Assembly: GCA_030647355.1 (NCBI GenBank)
Contig: JAUSIS010000010.1
Span: 1 to 48,145 of the forward strand
Length of the DNA stretch: 48,145 nt
Reading direction: 5' to 3'
Source of the DNA: a bacterium
Lineage (GTDB): Bacteria; Patescibacteriota; UBA1384; VFKW01
Below, piece by piece: positions 467-10,867 of the stretch. The notes under the pieces were generated by a model that was not told where the DNA came from, did no database searches, and saw only the letters and a program-made list of their open reading frames with translations. Made by a program: the position numbers and the translations under genes. Numbering within the stretch: position 1 is the stretch's first letter; each line of letters opens with the position of its first letter.

Positions 467-3400
467 ATGAACACAGATTTGACATTCATTACAAATGAAA
501 AAGATCAAAGTCTAAAAGATAGATTCGAGATATTAATCAAAGATACCCGATTTTTTGATTGTTTGGTTGGCTATTTTTATGCCAGTGGTTTTCATGCTCT
601 TTACAAATCATTAGAAAATACTGAAAAAGTTAGAATTCTTATTGGAATCAGCACCAACAAGCAAACCTACAATATGATGCAAAGTGCTAAACAGCCGATT
701 CAGCAACCGCTACAATTTTCAAGCGCCGAAGCTAAACAAGAAATCGAGGGTTTAGTTGAAAAAGAAATGGAAGATTCAGAAGATAATCAAAATACTGCCG
801 AAGGAGTAAGCAAATTTATTGAATGGATAAGAAACCAAAAACTGGAAATTCGGGCGTATCCATCAGAAAAAATTCATGCCAAGCTCTATATTATGACATT
901 TACCGAAGGCGATCGAGACAAGGGTAGAGTTATTACCGGTTCTAGTAATTTCACCCAAGCCGGCTTAATTGATAATTTGGAATTTAATGTTGAACTTAAA
1001 AATAGTGCCGACTACGATTTTGCCAAAAATAAATTTAATGATCTTTGGGAAGATGCTGTTGACGTTAGCGAGAAATATATTGAGACGATTCAAACAAAAA
1101 CATGGTTGAATGACGATATTACGCCGTACGAACTTTATCTTAAATTTTTGTATGAATATTTCAAAGACGAATTAAGCCAAAGTGATGAAGTTTTTATTAA
1201 ATATCTTCCAGCTGAATTTAAAAGATTGGAATATCAAGAACAAGCCGTGTTAAACGCTAAAAAAATTCTCGCAGAATACGGCGGCGTTTTTATTTCAGAC
1301 GTTGTCGGATTAGGTAAAACTTACATCGCCGCTATGCTCACTAATCAATTAGAAGGTAGGACTTTAGTTATTGCTCCACCGGTGCTTTTAGAGAAAAATA
1401 ATCCGGGTTCTTGGCCAAATGTTTTTGAAGATTTTCAAGTTCGCCAGACGCATTTTGAATCAATCGGCAAATTAGATAGTTTAGTTGAACAAGGAACCGA
1501 AAAATATACTAATGTTATTATTGATGAAGCTCATCGTTTCAGAACCGAAAGTAATGTTACCTACGAAAAACTTGCTGAAATTTGCCGAGGTAAACGCGTA
1601 ATTTTAGTTACGGCCACACCATATAATAATTCACCCAAAGATATCCTTAGCCAAATTAAACTTTTTCAAAAAGCGAGGAAAAGCACTATTCCTGGTCTGC
1701 CTGACTTAGAAAGATTTTTTAATAGTTTAGATAAAAAAATTAAAGATTTAGATCGTCAAAAAGATTACGCTGACTATATTAAAACTGTCAAAGAAAATGC
1801 TCAAGAAATTAGAGAAAAGGTTCTTAAATATTTAATGGTTCGCAGGACACGGGCAGAAATCATGGCTTATTTTGGAAAAGATTTGGAAACACAAAATCTG
1901 AAATTTCCCGATATTGAAAAACCGGAACCGTGTTTTTATGAACTAGACGATGATGAAGATAAAGTTTTCACTAAAACAATTCAGTTAGTGACTAAGAATT
2001 TTAATTATGCTCGCTACACACCGCTACTTTATTACAAAGGCCCGCTAGATCAACCAGTTGAGATTGCTCAAAGAAACATGGGTAAATTCATGAAAATCCT
2101 TTTAGTCAAAAGGCTCGAGAGCAGTTTCTATGCATTTAGGCAAACCCTTAATCGCTTTACACATTCTTACGAGCAGTTTATAGCCGAGTTGGAAAAAGGT
2201 AATGTCTATGTTAGCAAAAAATATACTAGTAAACTTTTTGAATTTTTAGAAAATGATGATGATGAAGCTATTCAAAGGCTAATTGATGAAGATAAGGCCG
2301 AAAAGTATACTAGCGACAATTTCAAGCCCGAATTTAAGCAGGATTTAGAAAGTGATCTAAAAACATTAAGAGAAATTCAAGAACTTTGGAAGCAAGTACA
2401 TCGTGATCCAAAATTAGAGTCATTAACCGATAGCCTGAAATCTAAACAAATTCTGAAAGAAAATAAAATTATTATCTTTACCGAATCTAAAGAGACTGCT
2501 CAGTATTTGGCGAAAAATCTTGAAATGTCATTTTCTGGATCAATTCTTCTGTTTACCGGAGAATCCGGACAAGCTATTAGAGATGAAGTTATTGAAAACT
2601 TCGACGCTAAATCACGCAACCAAAGTGATAAATACAGAATCTTAATCACAACTGAGGTTTTGTCTGAAGGTGTAAACCTGCACCGTTCTAATGTAGTTAT
2701 TAATTACGATATTCCCTGGAATCCAACACGGATGATGCAAAGAGTCGGCCGTGTAAATAGAGTTGACACGAAATTTGATAAAATTCATACCTTTAACTTT
2801 TTCCCAACTAAACAAGCTAATGATGAAATCAAGCTTAAGGAAGCGGCTGAAGCAAAAATCAACGCCTTTATTACATTACTTGGTGCCGACGCTCAGCTTT
2901 TAACTGAAGGGGAACCGATCGAACAACACGAATTATTTAATAAACTTACATCTAAAGTAACGCTTACTGGTGAAGATGGCCTCGAGGAAAGCGAGTTAAA
3001 ATATTTACACCTTATAAAAGGTATCCGAGACAAAGATCCTGAAACTTTTGAAAAAATTAAAAGATTGCCTAAAAAAGGCAGAACGGCAAAAGCTCATCAA
3101 GCAGAAAGAGATAGTTTATTAACCTATTTTAGACGAGGCAAACTCCAAAAATTCTTCAAAGCCGATAAAAATGAGGACTCCAAAGAGGTTGATTTTATCT
3201 CAGCGGCAAAACTTTTAGAATCTGATCCACAGACCAAAAAAGAGCAAATACCGAATACATTTTTTACATTGTTAGACAAAAATAAGCAGGCGTTTGCTTT
3301 TAGTACTACAGAAGAATTAGTGGAGACTGACTTACGCGGTGGTCGAGACAGCGCTACCCAAGTTTTAAGAATCATCAGGGCAACTCTAAAAGATCGACGA

Positions 3401-3655
3401 CAATTTACGGATGAACAAGAATTGTACTTGAAAAAAATTATGACTCAGCTTGAAGAGGGAGGGTTACCAAAACAAACGTCAAAAGAAGCATTTAAGGCCC
3501 TTCAGGAAGAATTTAAAACAGGGATTAATCCCCTTAGAATTTTAGCGGTATTACAATCAAAGATTCCGGAAAAGTTACTTGAAAGTCATTACGCTGAAAA
3601 CCAAACTTTCAATTTCGGTAAACGCGAAGTAATACTCTCAGAATATTTGGTCTAA
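467..3655 (+). CDS. PLD-family nuclease domain fused to SNF2/SF2 helicase (restriction/defence type)
   Basis: N-terminal single PLD-like motif (HAKLYI...GSSNFTQAGL). Helicase motifs: DVVGLGKT, IIDEAHRFR, LVTATPYNN, IIFTESKETAQYLAKNL, TTEVLSEGVNLHRSNVVINYDIPWNPTRMMQRVGRVNR. Confidence 0.9.
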   Translation: MNTDLTFITNEKDQSLKDRFEILIKDTRFFDCLVGYFYASGFHALYKSLENTEKVRILIGISTNKQTYNMMQSAKQPIQQPLQFSSAEAKQEIEGLVEKEMEDSEDNQNTAEGVSKFIEWIRNQKLEIRAYPSEKIHAKLYIMTFTEGDRDKGRVITGSSNFTQAGLIDNLEFNVELKNSADYDFAKNKFNDLWEDAVDVSEKYIETIQTKTWLNDDITPYELYLKFLYEYFKDELSQSDEVFIKYLPAEFKRLEYQEQAVLNAKKILAEYGGVFISDVVGLGKTYIAAMLTNQLEGRTLVIAPPVLLEKNNPGSWPNVFEDFQVRQTHFESIGKLDSLVEQGTEKYTNVIIDEAHRFRTESNVTYEKLAEICRGKRVILVTATPYNNSPKDILSQIKLFQKARKSTIPGLPDLERFFNSLDKKIKDLDRQKDYADYIKTVKENAQEIREKVLKYLMVRRTRAEIMAYFGKDLETQNLKFPDIEKPEPCFYELDDDEDKVFTKTIQLVTKNFNYARYTPLLYYKGPLDQPVEIAQRNMGKFMKILLVKRLESSFYAFRQTLNRFTHSYEQFIAELEKGNVYVSKKYTSKLFEFLENDDDEAIQRLIDEDKAEKYTSDNFKPEFKQDLESDLKTLREIQELWKQVHRDPKLESLTDSLKSKQILKENKIIIFTESKETAQYLAKNLEMSFSGSILLFTGESGQAIRDEVIENFDAKSRNQSDKYRILITTEVLSEGVNLHRSNVVINYDIPWNPTRMMQRVGRVNRVDTKFDKIHTFNFFPTKQANDEIKLKEAAEAKINAFITLLGADAQLLTEGEPIEQHELFNKLTSKVTLTGEDGLEESELKYLHLIKGIRDKDPETFEKIKRLPKKGRTAKAHQAERDSLLTYFRRGKLQKFFKADKNEDSKEVDFISAAKLLESDPQTKKEQIPNTFFTLLDKNKQAFAFSTTEELVETDLRGGRDSATQVLRIIRATLKDRRQFTDEQELYLKKIMTQLEEGGLPKQTSKEAFKALQEEFKTGINPLRILAVLQSKIPEKLLESHYAENQTFNFGKREVILSEYLV

Positions 3656-3657
3656 AC

Positions 3658-6600
3658 ATGAATAGAGAAACTTGTTATAAAATTATTAAAGATACTCTTC
3701 AAAGCGGTTTCGATAAGGAGCGGTTCAATTTTTTTATTAAAAACCTTCTCAATGCAATTGATGAATCTAAAGCTTTTCATGCTCGTGGTCATGTCAGAGA
3801 ACAATTTAAACAAACTGCCGGCATAATTAAAACTTACGAAAGAATTGGTACCTACAGTGATCCTGAGGAAAAGAAAATCGATATATTAATTGTCTATCTA
3901 GAAAAAGAAAACTCAATTGATCGGGCAAGAACCACATTACGAAATTTTGTTGCTGATTACTTAAAACAACGAGGTCAAAAAGATGCTGCCTTAGTCGCTT
4001 TTGTTTCGCCAAGCTTTGATGATTGGCGTTTTTCGCTTATTAAAATGGACTATAAGTTTGAGGAAAGTAAAAGCGGTAAAGTCAAAGTTAAAGAAGAATT
4101 TACGCCGGCTCGGCGATGGTCATTTTTGGTCGGAGCGAAAGAAAATTGTCATACCGCTCAAAGTCGTTTAGCACCGCTCATTGAAGATGATTCGCTTAAT
4201 TTGAATCTTCACCAATTAGAAGAAGCTTTCAATATTGAAAAAGTCACCAAAGAATTTTTCGAAAAATATCGGGAATTATTCCTAATTCTTAAAGACAATC
4301 TCGACAAAATGGTTGCCAAGGATTCTAAAATCAAAAACGATTTTCAGGAAAAGGATATTGACACCATTGATTTTGCCAAAAAACTTTTGGGTCAAATCGT
4401 CTTTCTTTATTTCTTGCAAAAGAAGGGTTGGTTTGGCGTTGAACGAGATTCAAACTGGGGTACTGGACCAAAAGACTTTTTACGCCAACTTTTTAAAGGA
4501 AATCATGGCGATTACAAAAACTTTTTTAATGAAATTTTAGAGCCATTATTTTATGAAGCTTTGGCTCGTGAAAGAGATGATAATTATTACGGACGCTTTA
4601 ATTGCAAGATTCCGTTTCTCAATGGTGGTCTTTTTGATCCGATCGGAAATTACGACTGGGTTCACACAGATATTTTATTAGAAAATGAACTGTTTTCGAA
4701 TGAAAATAAAGACTTAAAAACCGGTGATGTTGGCGACGGTATTTTAGATATTTTTGATCGTTATAATTTTACCGTTCGTGAAGATGAGCCGTTAGAAAAA
4801 GAAGTTGCCGTTGATCCAGAAATGCTTGGAAAGGTTTTTGAAAATCTTTTGGAAGTTAAAGACCGTAAATCAAAGGGAACTTATTATACTCCCCGTGAAA
4901 TTGTCCATTATATGTGCGAGCAAAGTTTGATTAACTATTTAGCAACTGAACTTCCAAATATTGGCAAAGAAGATGTTGAAGAATACATCAAAATCGGCGA
5001 CCAAGTATTAGAAAACGAATACTGGGTCGCTCTAAGCGGTGAAAGCGGTACTAAAAAATTCAAAATCAGTCCTACGATTATTGCCAATGCTGAATCAATT
5101 GATAAGAAATTGGCTGATATTAAAGTCTGCGATCCAGCGATTGGTTCCGGGGCATTTCCTGTGGGTATGATGAACGAAATTGTCAACGGGAGAATCGCCT
5201 TAAATCCATATATTAATCAAAAAGAGAATCGTACGGCTTATGATTTTAAAAACGAAGCTATTACAAACTCTTTATATGGTGTTGATATTGACCCCGGAGC
5301 GGTTGAAATTGCCAAACTCCGTTTATGGCTTTCCTTGGTGGTCGACGAGGACGACATTCATCATATCAAACCTCTGCCAAACTTGGACTATAAAATAATG
5401 CAAGGCAATAGCTTACTTGAAGAATTCGAAGGTATTAAACTTTTTGATGAAAAAATTATTCCCCAAGATAAAGCGGATAAAGAAGCTCGGGTCAGATCAG
5501 CTAATGAAAAAATATCCGAATTACAAAGGGAATATATTAAACTTCATTCGTCAGGCAATTTAAGCAAAATAAATGAACAATTAATAAAACAACAAATTAA
5601 AGATCACCAGAAAATTATTGCGAATCAAGAAATTAAACCAAAGACTAGTAATAACATAGATCTTTTCAAGCAGTATGATGAAACAAAAAGGAAGTGGGAC
5701 GAACTAACCGAACTGCATAAAAATATAATCAATGAATCAAATCGTGATGATAAAAATATAATGCTCAATCGTGCCTCGGAACTGGAATGGGAATTTATCG
5801 AAGTAACCTTGAAGCGTGAGGGTAAATTTAATTCGCTAAAAAAGGTTGAACAATTTAGAAAAAATAAAGCTAAGCCATTCTTCCTCTGGCGTTTACACTT
5901 CTCTGATGTTTTCAAGATTAAGAATGGTTTTGATATTGTCATTGCAAATCCGCCATATGTTAACGTTTTTGAACTGGATAAAGACAAAGAATTTGATAAG
6001 AAAATTTATCGCGATAAGTATAAATCCGCTTCAGGGGCATTTGACTTATATATCTTATTTCATGAATGGTGCATCGATCTGGCTAAACAAGATGGAGTTA
6101 TAACTTTGATATCACCCAATAAATATCTGTCCGCGGAATATGCTCAAAAGTTGAGGGAATTCATCGTAAATAACGCGACATTTGTTAATCTTGTTGATTT
6201 ATCTTCAATCAAAGTTTTTGATGCGAGTGTTTATCCAATAGTATCGATATATCAAAAATTCTTAACCAACTACCCCATACAAGTCTTAAAAGGATCTGGT
6301 GAAGTGGGAAACATTCAAATCCTTGGCAATAATGTGTACCAGCAAGACCAGATGAAAACCAGCCCTAAGTTAATTTGGAGTTTCCTTCTTTCTGGATCAT
6401 CCGGTCTATATCAAAAAATAAACAGCCATCATAAAATTACCGATGTTTGCAACGTGACTGCGTCATTTTCCGTAGATGAGGCATATAAGATTAAAAAATT
6501 GGTTTACAATGCTGAACAGCAAAATTCACAATTACCTTGTAAAAAACTAATCATAAGCTCCAATATATATCGTTACTATGTTTTATGGGGCAAGGGGTCA

Positions 6601-7140
6601 GTAAGTTATCTTAAGGATAGATTTCAAAAACCTTTTGTTGCCCTAGATCCAAATATTCTTTCCCAACATAGACTCGATCAGATAAACAACGAGAAGATAA
6701 TAATAGCCGGGATGACTAAAGAACTAAGAGCTTTTTTAGACAGTAATGGCGAATTTGTTGCTGGAATACCTACGGTTTTATTGACTAACTTTAAAACTGA
6801 CAGCAGATACCTTCTAGGATTGATTAATTCAAAACTCTATAATTTTTATTTTCACCTCCTCTTCGGATCATTGTCATTAGCAGGTGGTTATTTGAGAATT
6901 GGTGTTCCACAGATTAACTCCCTCCCATTTATAGAATCTAGTGCTAAAGATAAAAATTTGATTATAAGTTTAACGGAAAGCATTCTTTTGATTACCTCTT
7001 CAAGCGACTATTCTGAAAGTATTGCCAAACAATCTCAGGTTAAAGAATATGAACATCAAATCGACCAAATGGTCTATAAGCTTTATGACTTAACACTGGA
7101 AGAAATTGAAGTTGTGAAGGGAACTATTAAAAATGAATGA
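3658..7140 (+). CDS. Eco57I/TaqI-type N6-adenine DNA methyltransferase with C-terminal specificity region
   Basis: KGTYYTPREIVHYMCEQSL, motif I VCDPAIGSGAFPVGMM, motif IV FDIVIANPPYV; 1160 aa. The C-terminal TaqI-like region (LLGLINSKLYNFYF...INSLPFI) resembles target-recognition domains. Confidence 0.92.
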   Translation: MNRETCYKIIKDTLQSGFDKERFNFFIKNLLNAIDESKAFHARGHVREQFKQTAGIIKTYERIGTYSDPEEKKIDILIVYLEKENSIDRARTTLRNFVADYLKQRGQKDAALVAFVSPSFDDWRFSLIKMDYKFEESKSGKVKVKEEFTPARRWSFLVGAKENCHTAQSRLAPLIEDDSLNLNLHQLEEAFNIEKVTKEFFEKYRELFLILKDNLDKMVAKDSKIKNDFQEKDIDTIDFAKKLLGQIVFLYFLQKKGWFGVERDSNWGTGPKDFLRQLFKGNHGDYKNFFNEILEPLFYEALARERDDNYYGRFNCKIPFLNGGLFDPIGNYDWVHTDILLENELFSNENKDLKTGDVGDGILDIFDRYNFTVREDEPLEKEVAVDPEMLGKVFENLLEVKDRKSKGTYYTPREIVHYMCEQSLINYLATELPNIGKEDVEEYIKIGDQVLENEYWVALSGESGTKKFKISPTIIANAESIDKKLADIKVCDPAIGSGAFPVGMMNEIVNGRIALNPYINQKENRTAYDFKNEAITNSLYGVDIDPGAVEIAKLRLWLSLVVDEDDIHHIKPLPNLDYKIMQGNSLLEEFEGIKLFDEKIIPQDKADKEARVRSANEKISELQREYIKLHSSGNLSKINEQLIKQQIKDHQKIIANQEIKPKTSNNIDLFKQYDETKRKWDELTELHKNIINESNRDDKNIMLNRASELEWEFIEVTLKREGKFNSLKKVEQFRKNKAKPFFLWRLHFSDVFKIKNGFDIVIANPPYVNVFELDKDKEFDKKIYRDKYKSASGAFDLYILFHEWCIDLAKQDGVITLISPNKYLSAEYAQKLREFIVNNATFVNLVDLSSIKVFDASVYPIVSIYQKFLTNYPIQVLKGSGEVGNIQILGNNVYQQDQMKTSPKLIWSFLLSGSSGLYQKINSHHKITDVCNVTASFSVDEAYKIKKLVYNAEQQNSQLPCKKLIISSNIYRYYVLWGKGSVSYLKDRFQKPFVALDPNILSQHRLDQINNEKIIIAGMTKELRAFLDSNGEFVAGIPTVLLTNFKTDSRYLLGLINSKLYNFYFHLLFGSLSLAGGYLRIGVPQINSLPFIESSAKDKNLIISLTESILLITSSSDYSESIAKQSQVKEYEHQIDQMVYKLYDLTLEEIEVVKGTIKNE

Positions 7141-8758
7141 AAAACAATACTACACTGAGCTCAATAGTCATATTACAAAAATTTTAACTTCAACTGCCTC
7201 TAAAAAATTAATTGTTGCTGGGCCTGGAACAGGTAAAACAAGTTTCTTTGAAAAAGCTGTTCATCATTATGGCGGTAATAAAGATGATTATTTAATCCTT
7301 ACCTTTATAAACAATCTAGAAGATGAACTTCAAAAAGACCTTGGCGATTTAGCGAAGGTTTATACATTTCACGGATATTGCCATTATCTTTTAAGGAAAA
7401 ACTCTAGTTTAAGGTATGGACTGCTAGACAATTTTGAATATTATCCAGCATTGATCGAACTTGTTAAGTCTGATTGGAGAATATTAAGCAAAAGTGAAAG
7501 CCCAAAATTTGTGAAACTTATGCGCGATACTTCTGCAGATATATCAACGGATTTTTTCTTAAAAAGAGGAAATTATTACAATGCTGCAGGTTATGACGAC
7601 TCTGTTTTCCGTGTATATAAATCTTTAGACAGCGGAAAAAATATTAGCGAAAAGTACAAGCTAATTATTATTGATGAATATCAAGATTTTAATTTACTTG
7701 AAACCTCCGTATTGTCCAATATCATAGATTCTAATTCAACGCTTGTTGTTGGCGACGATGACCAAGCTCTGTATTGCCAACTTAGAAATTCAGACCCTGA
7801 ATTTATCAGAAGTTTGTTTAAAGGAGAGGATTTTGAAAATTTTGAGTTGCCTTTTTGCCTAAGATGTCCAAGTGCTGTGATATCGGTCTTTACTAAAATT
7901 ATCGAAAACGCAAAAAGAAAAGGCCTACTAAGTAAAAGAATAAATAAAAAATTTAATTTCTTTCCTCCCATTAAAGAAAAGGATAGTAGAAATTATCCAA
8001 AAATTAAGCTAATGATTTCGTCAGTGCAAAGAAAAGGGGCTAATTATTTTGGTAGATATGTTCTAAAAGAACTAGAAAAGATAACTGACGAAGAAATCAA
8101 GGAATCTTTTGAGAAAAACTTTCCCACTGTATTGATAATTGGGCCAACTTATTATCTAAAAAGTCTTATTCCTATTTTTGATGAAGAAAATCTTAAATAC
8201 GAATTCAAAGAAGACAAAACAGGATTAAACGTTAATATTGAAGACGGATTAACGCTAATAAGTGCAGACGAAAGATCTAATTTAGGTTGGCGTATAATCA
8301 TTGAGGCCTGTAAGCCTGAATTCTACACCAAGTGTGTTTCGTCATCTGTAAATAATGATGAGATTTATAGCACCCTTCCGAAAGAATTTACTGAGGATGT
8401 TCTTAAAAAAGCAAAGTCCATGGAAACAAAAGAAGAACCAAATGTCGAACTGAATATTGATAAAACAAAGCCTCTTGTTAAACTAGTTACCTTTGAAGGC
8501 GCAAAAGGCCTATCGGCCCAAATGGTTTTTATTTTGGGGCTACAAAATGGAGATTTACCCAGAAACCCGACAGCCATAATCGATATAGAGGTTTGTAAAT
8601 TTCTTGTCGCTTTGACCAGGACACGAAAACAATGCCATGTCTTATCTACCACAAATTTTGCAGGCAAAAGAGTATATCCATCAGAATTTATTAAATGGAT
8701 GGGTAGTGAAAATTTAGATATTGTAAGGATAGACAAAAATTATTGGCATGCGAAATAA
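7133..8758 (+). CDS. Compact UvrD/PcrA-like SF1 helicase
   Basis: VAGPGTGKTSF (Walker A), TFHGYCHYLL, LIIIDEYQDFNLLE (motif II), LVVGDDDQALY (III), VTFEGAKGLSAQMVFI (V), LVALTRTRK (VI). Overlaps the methyltransferase stop by 8 bp (ATGAATGA). Confidence 0.88.
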   Translation: MNEKQYYTELNSHITKILTSTASKKLIVAGPGTGKTSFFEKAVHHYGGNKDDYLILTFINNLEDELQKDLGDLAKVYTFHGYCHYLLRKNSSLRYGLLDNFEYYPALIELVKSDWRILSKSESPKFVKLMRDTSADISTDFFLKRGNYYNAAGYDDSVFRVYKSLDSGKNISEKYKLIIIDEYQDFNLLETSVLSNIIDSNSTLVVGDDDQALYCQLRNSDPEFIRSLFKGEDFENFELPFCLRCPSAVISVFTKIIENAKRKGLLSKRINKKFNFFPPIKEKDSRNYPKIKLMISSVQRKGANYFGRYVLKELEKITDEEIKESFEKNFPTVLIIGPTYYLKSLIPIFDEENLKYEFKEDKTGLNVNIEDGLTLISADERSNLGWRIIIEACKPEFYTKCVSSSVNNDEIYSTLPKEFTEDVLKKAKSMETKEEPNVELNIDKTKPLVKLVTFEGAKGLSAQMVFILGLQNGDLPRNPTAIIDIEVCKFLVALTRTRKQCHVLSTTNFAGKRVYPSEFIKWMGSENLDIVRIDKNYWHAK

Positions 8759-8780
8759 AAATCATCGAGGAGTCAGTAAG

Positions 8781-9548
8781 ATGAATGAATCAGCAGGCAA
8801 TAAACAAAGTAGAGTTTTTATTAAAGATTTGGATGGGTGCACATGGCAGTTGTTTTCGTTATCTCAGAATAAAAAGGATGGGAGTATTTATCTTGGATCG
8901 CTCGAATTTACAGCATTTGAGTGGCTTACATTTAGAGTAGAAAAAAACAAACTAAAACCCTTTAAGATCGTGCAGAATTCTAGTGGACACCTAAGTGTAC
9001 ACGCCTCTGGACAAACGCGAATTACCTCGAGCGAATATGACGATAAATTAATTATTAATGGTCATCATTTATTAAAAAAGGTTGAAAAAGATATTAGCTT
9101 GCGACATTTGTTTACAATGTTTCCTAGAAAACCAGATAAGGCTCCAAATTCAGAAGCTGGCGCAAGAAAAAGTGATGTGACTGCAAACACTAGTAAAAAA
9201 ATTCGCCCTTTTGTTATTTTAGCCTATGCATTACCCCGCGTCGGTTTTAAGGTAAAGTTTCAAGCGTCATTTTGCATTGATGATTTAGAAACTGAAGATA
9301 TTCCTGGCATTCTAGGAGTAATAACTTTTCCGTTAATTCACCATGATATTTTTATGGTTATATATCGAACAAAATTCATGGATGAATGGCCTAAGAAACA
9401 TATAGTCCAATACACAGATGGAATTATAGTGCCCATGTTTTTTGGTGAATCAGACAGAAAGATTCGTGTAGAATTTAAGATCCCTGAATTTTCATTACAA
9501 AATAATGAATTAGGAATAAAAATTCAGTGCGCAAGAGATGAAATATGA
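8781..9548 (+). CDS. Hypothetical protein of unknown family, defence-operon member
   Basis: ORF with a gaggag SD upstream of ATG 8781; the longer ORF start at 8748 lies inside the helicase gene. Two beta-rich halves appear joined by a charged linker (PDKAPNSEAGARKSDVTANTSKK). No family recognised. Confidence 0.75.
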   Translation: MNESAGNKQSRVFIKDLDGCTWQLFSLSQNKKDGSIYLGSLEFTAFEWLTFRVEKNKLKPFKIVQNSSGHLSVHASGQTRITSSEYDDKLIINGHHLLKKVEKDISLRHLFTMFPRKPDKAPNSEAGARKSDVTANTSKKIRPFVILAYALPRVGFKVKFQASFCIDDLETEDIPGILGVITFPLIHHDIFMVIYRTKFMDEWPKKHIVQYTDGIIVPMFFGESDRKIRVEFKIPEFSLQNNELGIKIQCARDEI

Positions 9549-9949
9549 AAACCACCCGAATTTTAATTTTAGAAGATGATTTGAAAACGCTGTCCGTCAT
9601 AATGGGTAGTTTATTTTCACTTGAGGAGGAATTGGTTGGAAAGTTGGATTTTGCGGTTACAGTATTTTCTGAATATACTGAAGTTGAGAATTATTTAAAT
9701 AAGATAGAAAAGCCGAATTTTGATATTGTTTTACTAGATAGGGATTGTAAAATGTGCGGTTCATTCCACATATTAGATTTTGAAAAGTTTGGCAAAGATA
9801 AAATCGTCTCTATATCCTCTACTCCAGAGTGGAACGAGGAAGCAAAAGAAGCCGGGATAAGCAGAATTGTTCCGAAAGATTATTCCGATCTTGAGGATTT
9901 TGGGAAGCGATTGATTGAAGAGATTCGTAATATAATAAGCGAGGAATAG
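9545..9949 (+). CDS. Stand-alone response-regulator receiver (REC) domain protein
   Basis: RILILEDD acidic pocket, FDIVLLDRD phospho-acceptor region, VSISST, IVPKDY conserved Lys; 134 aa, no output domain. ATGA overlap with the preceding gene. Confidence 0.8.
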   Translation: MKTTRILILEDDLKTLSVIMGSLFSLEEELVGKLDFAVTVFSEYTEVENYLNKIEKPNFDIVLLDRDCKMCGSFHILDFEKFGKDKIVSISSTPEWNEEAKEAGISRIVPKDYSDLEDFGKRLIEEIRNIISEE

Positions 9950-10867
9950 GTGTTAGGACAGAATAGAATTCCAAAGGAATATTGGTTCTTGATTAGTTCG
10001 GGAGTTTTGTCCGGATTGATTGTTTTTAGCGGGGCAATTTTCAAGCGCTGGGGATTTTCACTCATGGAAGTTTCGATACTGCCGTTTGTGCCGGCTGTAA
10101 TTTTTTTGGTGCCGTTTTTAAGAGGCAAGAGAAAAGAATTTTCTTTGGGAAACCTGAAGATACTCCTGGTATGGTCTCTGGTAGCCGCCTTTACAGTTAT
10201 GACACAATTTGGAGCAGTGATGGCAGGGGCATCGGTAGCGATGACGGTACTTTTACTATATACACAGCCAATTTGGACAATTATAAGCAGCCGGATATTT
10301 TTTAAGAAGCGCATCTTATGGATGGATATAATAAATTGTTTAGTTGTTGTTTCAGGGATTATTTTACTAATTGAGCCCTGGAAAATAAAAGATCCGGGAA
10401 GTACTTTAGGAATTATTATTGCTCTATTTGGAGGGTTAGCGCTGTCAGGCTGGATTACGATTGGCTGGTATGTGGCGCAAAAGAAAATTGATCCTTATGC
10501 GGCAAAATTTGCCGAAACAATCATAGAATCGGTAATAATTTTTGCGGTGTTAAATATAGTGCAATTGTTCATTAAACAAAATCATATTAACCGACTATCA
10601 TTGCATTGGCCGCTTGGAATATGGTTATTTATTTTAATTTTTACACTGCTGACGCAAGTAGTAAATCATGTGCTTTACTTGAAAGGTACGCGAAAAGTGC
10701 CAGCAATAAATGCAGGGATAATGATGATGCTTGAGCCGGTGAGCGGCACAATTTTAGCGGCGCTATTTCTTGGACAAGTAATTGGAGGGAATATAGTACT
10801 CGGCGGAGGTTTAATAATTTTAGGAAACTATTTAGTAATTCGAAGGGGTGAAAGCATAGCTAGCTAA
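9950..10867 (+). CDS. EamA/DMT-family transporter
   Basis: About 10 hydrophobic helices in two EamA-like halves. GTG start immediately after the REC gene stop. Confidence 0.85.
   Translation: MLGQNRIPKEYWFLISSGVLSGLIVFSGAIFKRWGFSLMEVSILPFVPAVIFLVPFLRGKRKEFSLGNLKILLVWSLVAAFTVMTQFGAVMAGASVAMTVLLLYTQPIWTIISSRIFFKKRILWMDIINCLVVVSGIILLIEPWKIKDPGSTLGIIIALFGGLALSGWITIGWYVAQKKIDPYAAKFAETIIESVIIFAVLNIVQLFIKQNHINRLSLHWPLGIWLFILIFTLLTQVVNHVLYLKGTRKVPAINAGIMMMLEPVSGTILAALFLGQVIGGNIVLGGGLIILGNYLVIRRGESIAS

Follow-up and report, generated by a model that had tools for sequence, protein, structure and literature searches.

A divergent single-domain receiver of Patescibacteria, probably an optional switch attached to the ends of unrelated phage-defence operons

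DtcB, the stand-alone receiver of the Detocs system, drains or blocks a histidine kinase. Detocs as a whole comprises three genes that form a two-component system used in defence, with a PNP effector that degrades ATP (PMC11249213), and FixT is a single-domain receiver able to act by binding, in its case inhibiting the kinase FixL (PMC7078487). A further departure from classical signalling is cRec, a divergent receiver with a predicted role in cyclic-phosphate processing that lies outside kinase signalling; its phosphodiesterase activity is itself a prediction (PMC7824862, PMC9503650). Here we compare with these systems a receiver-like gene (hereafter REC) encoded in the window, by which we mean the whole 48,145-nucleotide stretch of patescibacterial DNA that was analysed.

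The REC open reading frame (9545-9949, + strand) encodes 134 amino acids. Its start codon shares bases with the stop codon of the gene before it (ATGA), in agreement with the earlier note, which had read REC as an orphan receiver at the end of a restriction-like operon, coupled by translation to the protein encoded just upstream. The four genes upstream (467-9548) lie on the same + strand and are tightly spaced or overlapping. The core of the operon is an HKD/PLD-SNF2 helicase (467-3655, 1062 aa) that matches Pfam PLDc_2, SNF2-rel_dom and Helicase_C and the PADLOC model C3a139 'HKD+Snf2' (E 5.5e-53). It is followed by an Eco57I/type IIG-like adenine methyltransferase (3658-7140, 1160 aa; Pfam Eco57I at E 1.8e-36 and TaqI_C, PADLOC REase_MTase_IIG at 840 bits), a UvrD-like SF1 helicase (7133-8758, 541 aa; Pfam UvrD-helicase, E 6.3e-24) and a 255-aa protein without assigned family (8781-9548, with a second in-frame ATG at 8748). 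For this last product, Pfam, NCBIfam and PADLOC returned no family and the PDB no relative, and its single-sequence fold model has a pLDDT of 34. The single relative found, at 56% identity, is encoded in genome G224 (L032, 10724-11470), where it also stands last in a restriction operon; REC does not adjoin it, yet is present elsewhere in that genome. In the window, REC is likely the last gene of the operon, as originally proposed. That boundary is uncertain because an EamA-family transporter ORF (9950-10867, + strand; Pfam EamA) begins with a 0-bp gap after the REC stop; this ORF is probably outside the system, with read-through from REC being possible. At the start of the contig, a 97-aa ORF (29-322) has a RelB-antitoxin match below threshold, and any partner would fall past the contig end.

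An AlphaFold model of the REC protein, built with 29 family sequences as input, has a pLDDT of 93.6 and a pTM of 0.89. Its top PDB match by Foldseek is the ComE REC domain (4mld; E 2.8e-4, probability 1.00, TM 0.74), and the next-best matches are likewise receiver domains. A family profile aligned by hhalign with one built on 20 canonical receivers of the same genomes gave a probability of 88.7% (E 2.6e-6), with E10/D11 (9572-9577), D65 (9737-9739), S91 (9815-9817) and K111 (9875-9877), all on the + strand, in register with the canonical acidic pair, phospho-acceptor Asp, Ser/Thr and Lys. Modelling and alignment together place REC in the receiver domain superfamily, with a predicted (beta-alpha)5 fold, so that both the fold and the phospho-acceptor that the earlier note had put up for checking were borne out. 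The ORF is more than a chance reading frame, since homologues at E<=6e-10 occur in ten other genomes of a 381-genome sample of the phylum and the predicted structure resembles a receiver.

Standard annotation misses this protein. It is not recognized by Pfam, NCBIfam or PADLOC, it does not reach the curated threshold of PF00072 (Response_reg), and PF00072 matches only 3/32 family members (E 0.04-0.5). Weak matches to PBECR1 and DUF7000 lie under the Pfam cut-off and were taken as chance. The classical marks of a phospho-switch, Lys-Pro and an aromatic switch residue, were not found across the 32 aligned members: position K+1 is Asp instead of Pro (Asp in 29/32), K-3 is Val, Ile, Ser, Ala or Thr and aromatic in none, and D+4 is Lys in place of the canonical Pro. 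A DRDC..GSFH signature takes the place of the standard switch features. The receiver residues first described as canonical are therefore so at the acidic pair, D65, S91 and K111, and non-canonical at K+1, K-3 and D+4. The alignment indicates a phosphoryl site that has been retained and a usual relay from that site that has been lost.

Conservation of the site is strict. None of the 32 aligned members departs from E10, D11, N52, D60, D65, F74, S91, N97 or K111, and R66, D67, C68, S73 and H75 are kept in 29-31 of them. R66 and C68 vary in members found later, as in LLDFDDKLGRSFH of L096. L094, L096 and L097 form a subfamily with DYDD or DFDD replacing DRDC, in which the phospho-Asp and SFH/TFH are retained. 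Comparison of the window REC with the REC of another locus, L033, gave a dN of 0.16 with saturated dS, a sign of strong purifying selection. These observations bear on the suggestion that REC has degenerated into an inert scaffold: loss of the Lys-Pro and aromatic switch positions would suit it, but invariance of every catalytic residue and the strength of selection make it extremely improbable, and we have abandoned it.

The family comprises about 40 single-domain proteins, nearly all from Patescibacteria, with a patchy distribution. A clear member is present in 11/381 genomes of an even sample of the phylum (the window genome included). Matches occur in 22/382 genomes of the class of genome G227, some as fragments only, and in 4/55 genomes of the window's own class. 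Scanning GTDB contigs gave 34 loci, mostly in named patescibacterial lineages (Berkelbacteria, Moranbacteria, Daviesbacteria, Levybacteria, Roizmanbacteria and others). Three are labelled outside the phylum, as Izemoplasmatales, Nanoarchaeota and Alphaproteobacteria, and the first two are possibly misbinned because their contigs are short. Searches of IMG/VR viral contigs, PLSDB plasmids and INPHARED phages returned no homologue, so a phage origin is unsupported. A literature search of incomplete coverage returned no description of this family, which we regard as a formerly uncatalogued receiver family of ultra-small (Patescibacteria-type) bacteria.

The relation of REC to the restriction operon is real but optional. 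A single further operon of this type was found, in locus L033, and the two REC proteins are 79% identical, compared with 33% for the helicase and 35% for the methyltransferase; REC was therefore acquired separately from the core genes. Five homologous helicase or helicase-methylase loci from other phyla, on plasmids of Parabacteroides, Prevotella, Natrinema, Microcystis and Thermococcus, proved receiver-free both in their annotation and in a six-frame HMM search. The earlier note had counted routine absence of the gene from homologous operons against its reading; absence from these five goes part of the way to refuting that reading. Independent recruitment and the five receiver-free loci argue that REC is not a core subunit of HKD-helicase/IIG methylase systems. 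Phospho-regulated restriction, raised in the earlier note, may still be a property of the PLD-helicase/methyltransferase system, one that on this comparison would not be specific to the window operon. Among N6_Mtase matches in REC-positive genomes, only 2/16 lie within 10 kb of REC, and this scarcity, together with the identity gap to L033, led us to drop a dedicated restriction-modification partner role. The REC tree is grouped by host class (0/200 shuffles were as clustered) and contexts vary inside clades; the simplest reading is a gene mostly kept within host lineages and reshuffled among operons.

With ORFs called mechanically, the upstream gene could be scored for 29 family members, and in 20 of them a same-strand gene lies no more than 65 bp ahead, ATGA overlaps included. 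A convergent gene lies downstream of many members. About 15 loci have Pfam-supported defence-type genes near REC. For example, L033 has an HKD-helicase/methylase pair as in the window and a GmrSD gene downstream; L038 a type III methylase, ResIII and PD-(D/E)XK; L039 (=L024) type I restriction, a nuclease-like/FtsK-gamma protein and a trypsin-like protein; L044 (=L026) PD-(D/E)XK; L046 DUF2779; L048 AAA_15/AAA_21 (OLD) plus UvrD; and L053 a MazG-like gene plus a Schlafen-group helicase. KAP NTPases occur in L040 and L055, GmrSD in L058, an AAA_11/AAA_12-PLD protein in L098, a divergent N6_N4 methylase in L095, a D12 methylase in L096 and Schlafen AlbA_2 in L037. Many members have non-defence neighbours, such as DUF6909 (L099), PPDK (L044) and EamA (window), and other members lie near serine recombinase-like and terminase-small-like genes, judged by sequence appearance only. 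Enrichment of defence genes around REC is a strong impression from the loci inspected. The recurrent neighbours of REC relatives make a defence connection likely, and gene order marks REC as a defence-associated accessory gene, its coupling to defence genes recurring in independent loci. The same comparisons indicate repeated recruitment to many unrelated defence modules, usually close behind another cistron. Co-location in an island does not prove that REC and defence genes function jointly.

Some further neighbours recur. A trypsin-like serine protease is found near REC in L029, L039, L041, L054 and L055, confirmed by Pfam in L029, L039/L024 and L054. An approximately 80-aa protein (...TSDLALAS...) is encoded near REC in L036, L045 and L047, and in L036 and L047 a serine recombinase-like gene accompanies it, a context that suggests carriage of REC by an integrative element of these bacteria.

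FtsK-gamma, a winged-helix domain, reads DNA motifs within FtsK. Outside FtsK, and in defence surroundings, it is fused to REC in L044 (=L026; 9992-10606, PF09397 E 2.4e-23), forms a small protein encoded by the next gene after REC in L033 (6671-6991, E 9e-27), ends a nuclease-like protein encoded two genes before REC in L039 (7553-8428) and is found close to a remnant of REC in L101 (9924-10262). A further case in L097 is weak. Confident FtsK-gamma domains number four in 0.60 Mb of REC neighbourhoods, compared with three non-FtsK copies in about 24 Mb from 26 REC-free genomes. Given the DNA-reading role of the domain in FtsK, these proteins are candidate output partners of REC, or they may be just another general defence-island gene.

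One possible explanation for this mixture of contexts is that REC is bystander cargo, a mobile accessory gene that lands in islands of defence genes and mobile elements, acts on host physiology and has no role in restriction. It would account for the patchy presence in each genome sample, the truncated REC remnants in several genomes, the serine recombinase-like genes near members, the homologous operons lacking REC, and a tree clustered by host class in which neighbours differ. Repeated tight coupling to defence cistrons, a second recruitment to the same operon type in L033 and the FtsK-gamma association and fusion all run against it, and we consider it somewhat unlikely.

The source of any phosphoryl group is a separate question. 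The window contig (C7) has no histidine kinase and no PF00072 protein, and REC has no output domain; the earlier note had stated the absence of the kinase and of the output domain. Elsewhere in the window genome, off the window contig, lie three HisKA kinases (contigs C3 and C12) and a minimum of four canonical receivers, with HATPase_c/HisKA matches on contigs C3, C5 and C12. Histidine kinases are present in 24/25 REC-positive and 20/25 REC-negative genomes and do not discriminate between them. In the neighbourhoods read, no kinase gene adjoins REC, except at the divergent member L031. One Patescibacteria-type genome, G245 (L029; a single contig, 99% complete), has an intact REC, no HisKA and no PF00072, and a GyrB-like protein as its sole HATPase. 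It allows a kinase-independent function for REC, as a single genome in which divergent kinases could be missed, and makes a kinase-free receiver in defence a directly testable question. These kinase data bear on whether REC could be a phosphate buffer or kinase inhibitor, draining or blocking a histidine kinase of the host as DtcB does or as FixT does with FixL. Kinase inhibition by single-domain receivers is known (FixT, PMC7078487), and several of the kinase-bearing REC-positive genomes have exactly one kinase. We nevertheless regard it as very unlikely, as G245 has no detectable kinase to inhibit, typical members have no linked kinase, and the links to restriction operons and FtsK-gamma would be left unexplained.

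An intact active site in a genome without detectable two-component proteins speaks for an enzyme, in which a cRec-like REC site would hydrolyse a phosphate-containing small molecule or a nucleic-acid end and there would be no phospho-switch. The extra near-invariant residues around the site (R66, D67, C68, S73, H75, N97) and the loss of switch residues point the same way, and such chemistry has been proposed for cRec (PMC7824862, PMC9503650). However, the family has no profile likeness to phage cRec whereas canonical REC matches, Lys111 is retained, and candidate RNA-repair or NAD genes nearby are few (a Nudix-like ORF in L046 and the MazG-like gene in L053). We judge an enzymatic role unlikely.

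Our preferred reading, held tentatively, is that REC is a phosphorylatable single-domain receiver, of a family centred on Patescibacteria, and that its role is that of an accessory switch in operons for defence and of mobile elements. The gene has come to stand at the ends of many phage-defence operons that are unrelated to one another, probably as an optional switch and not a fixed component of the restriction system in the window. D65 would be phosphorylated by a resident kinase or by a small phosphodonor, and the altered surface of REC would bind a partner. In some loci the partner may be the FtsK-gamma DNA-binding protein, and in others a product of the operon itself, in the window for instance the 8781-9548 protein. 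Such binding would modulate the linked defence genes, in their expression or in their activity, with REC acting as an optional regulator and not as a catalytic subunit of restriction. The accessory-switch reading draws on the receiver fold, invariant catalytic residues and purifying selection; on the tight same-strand coupling, varied defence neighbours and separate acquisition; and on the FtsK-gamma association and fusion and the kinases in nearly all REC-positive genomes. Unlinked kinases, G245, the missing Lys-Pro and aromatic K-3, the many non-defence neighbours and the few nearby N6_Mtase genes count against it. A bolder version, which we hold to be distinctly unlikely, would make REC a general patescibacterial plug-in for almost any defence operon that, with FtsK-gamma proteins, gates defence by kinase-free phosphoryl or phosphoester chemistry. 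On the accessory-switch reading, the family would consist of receivers that the standard receiver profile fails to see and that have moved between defence operons. This would suggest that restriction and other phage defences can acquire phospho-signalling or receiver-type chemistry as a transferable addition, in a phylum where defence has received little study.

Among described systems, Detocs shares with REC a stand-alone receiver (DtcB) in a defence setting. The window operon has no DtcA kinase, the kinases of the genome being on other contigs, and a Pfam scan of the operon genes found no DtcC receiver-nucleosidase (PNP) effector; membership in Detocs is rejected on both counts. Like the family, cRec is a divergent REC met outside kinase signalling, and it too has D-x-D at its active Asp, but its DDxR, DHDL and HSxNPxG motifs, seen in the examined phage set, set it apart. 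Membership was rejected by profile comparison, in which hhalign gave a probability of 0.4% against a small reference of 10 phage sequences gathered with a consensus probe; a functional analogy is possible despite this mismatch. Operons of an HKD/SNF2 helicase with a type IIG methyltransferase are represented by the window genes at 467-7140, and differ in that the five such loci in other phyla are receiver-free. FixT, like REC, is a receiver without an output domain, and it acts through protein binding, but it has a four-Cys Fe-S motif and a dedicated kinase where the REC family has one conserved Cys and no linked kinase. Compared with single-domain response regulators of the CheY/Spo0F type (PF00072), the family falls below Pfam detection, lacks Lys-Pro and the aromatic switch, carries DRDC..GSFH and typically has no adjoining kinase, while sharing with them the REC fold, the acidic pair, D65, S91, K111 and a single-domain architecture free of any output domain.
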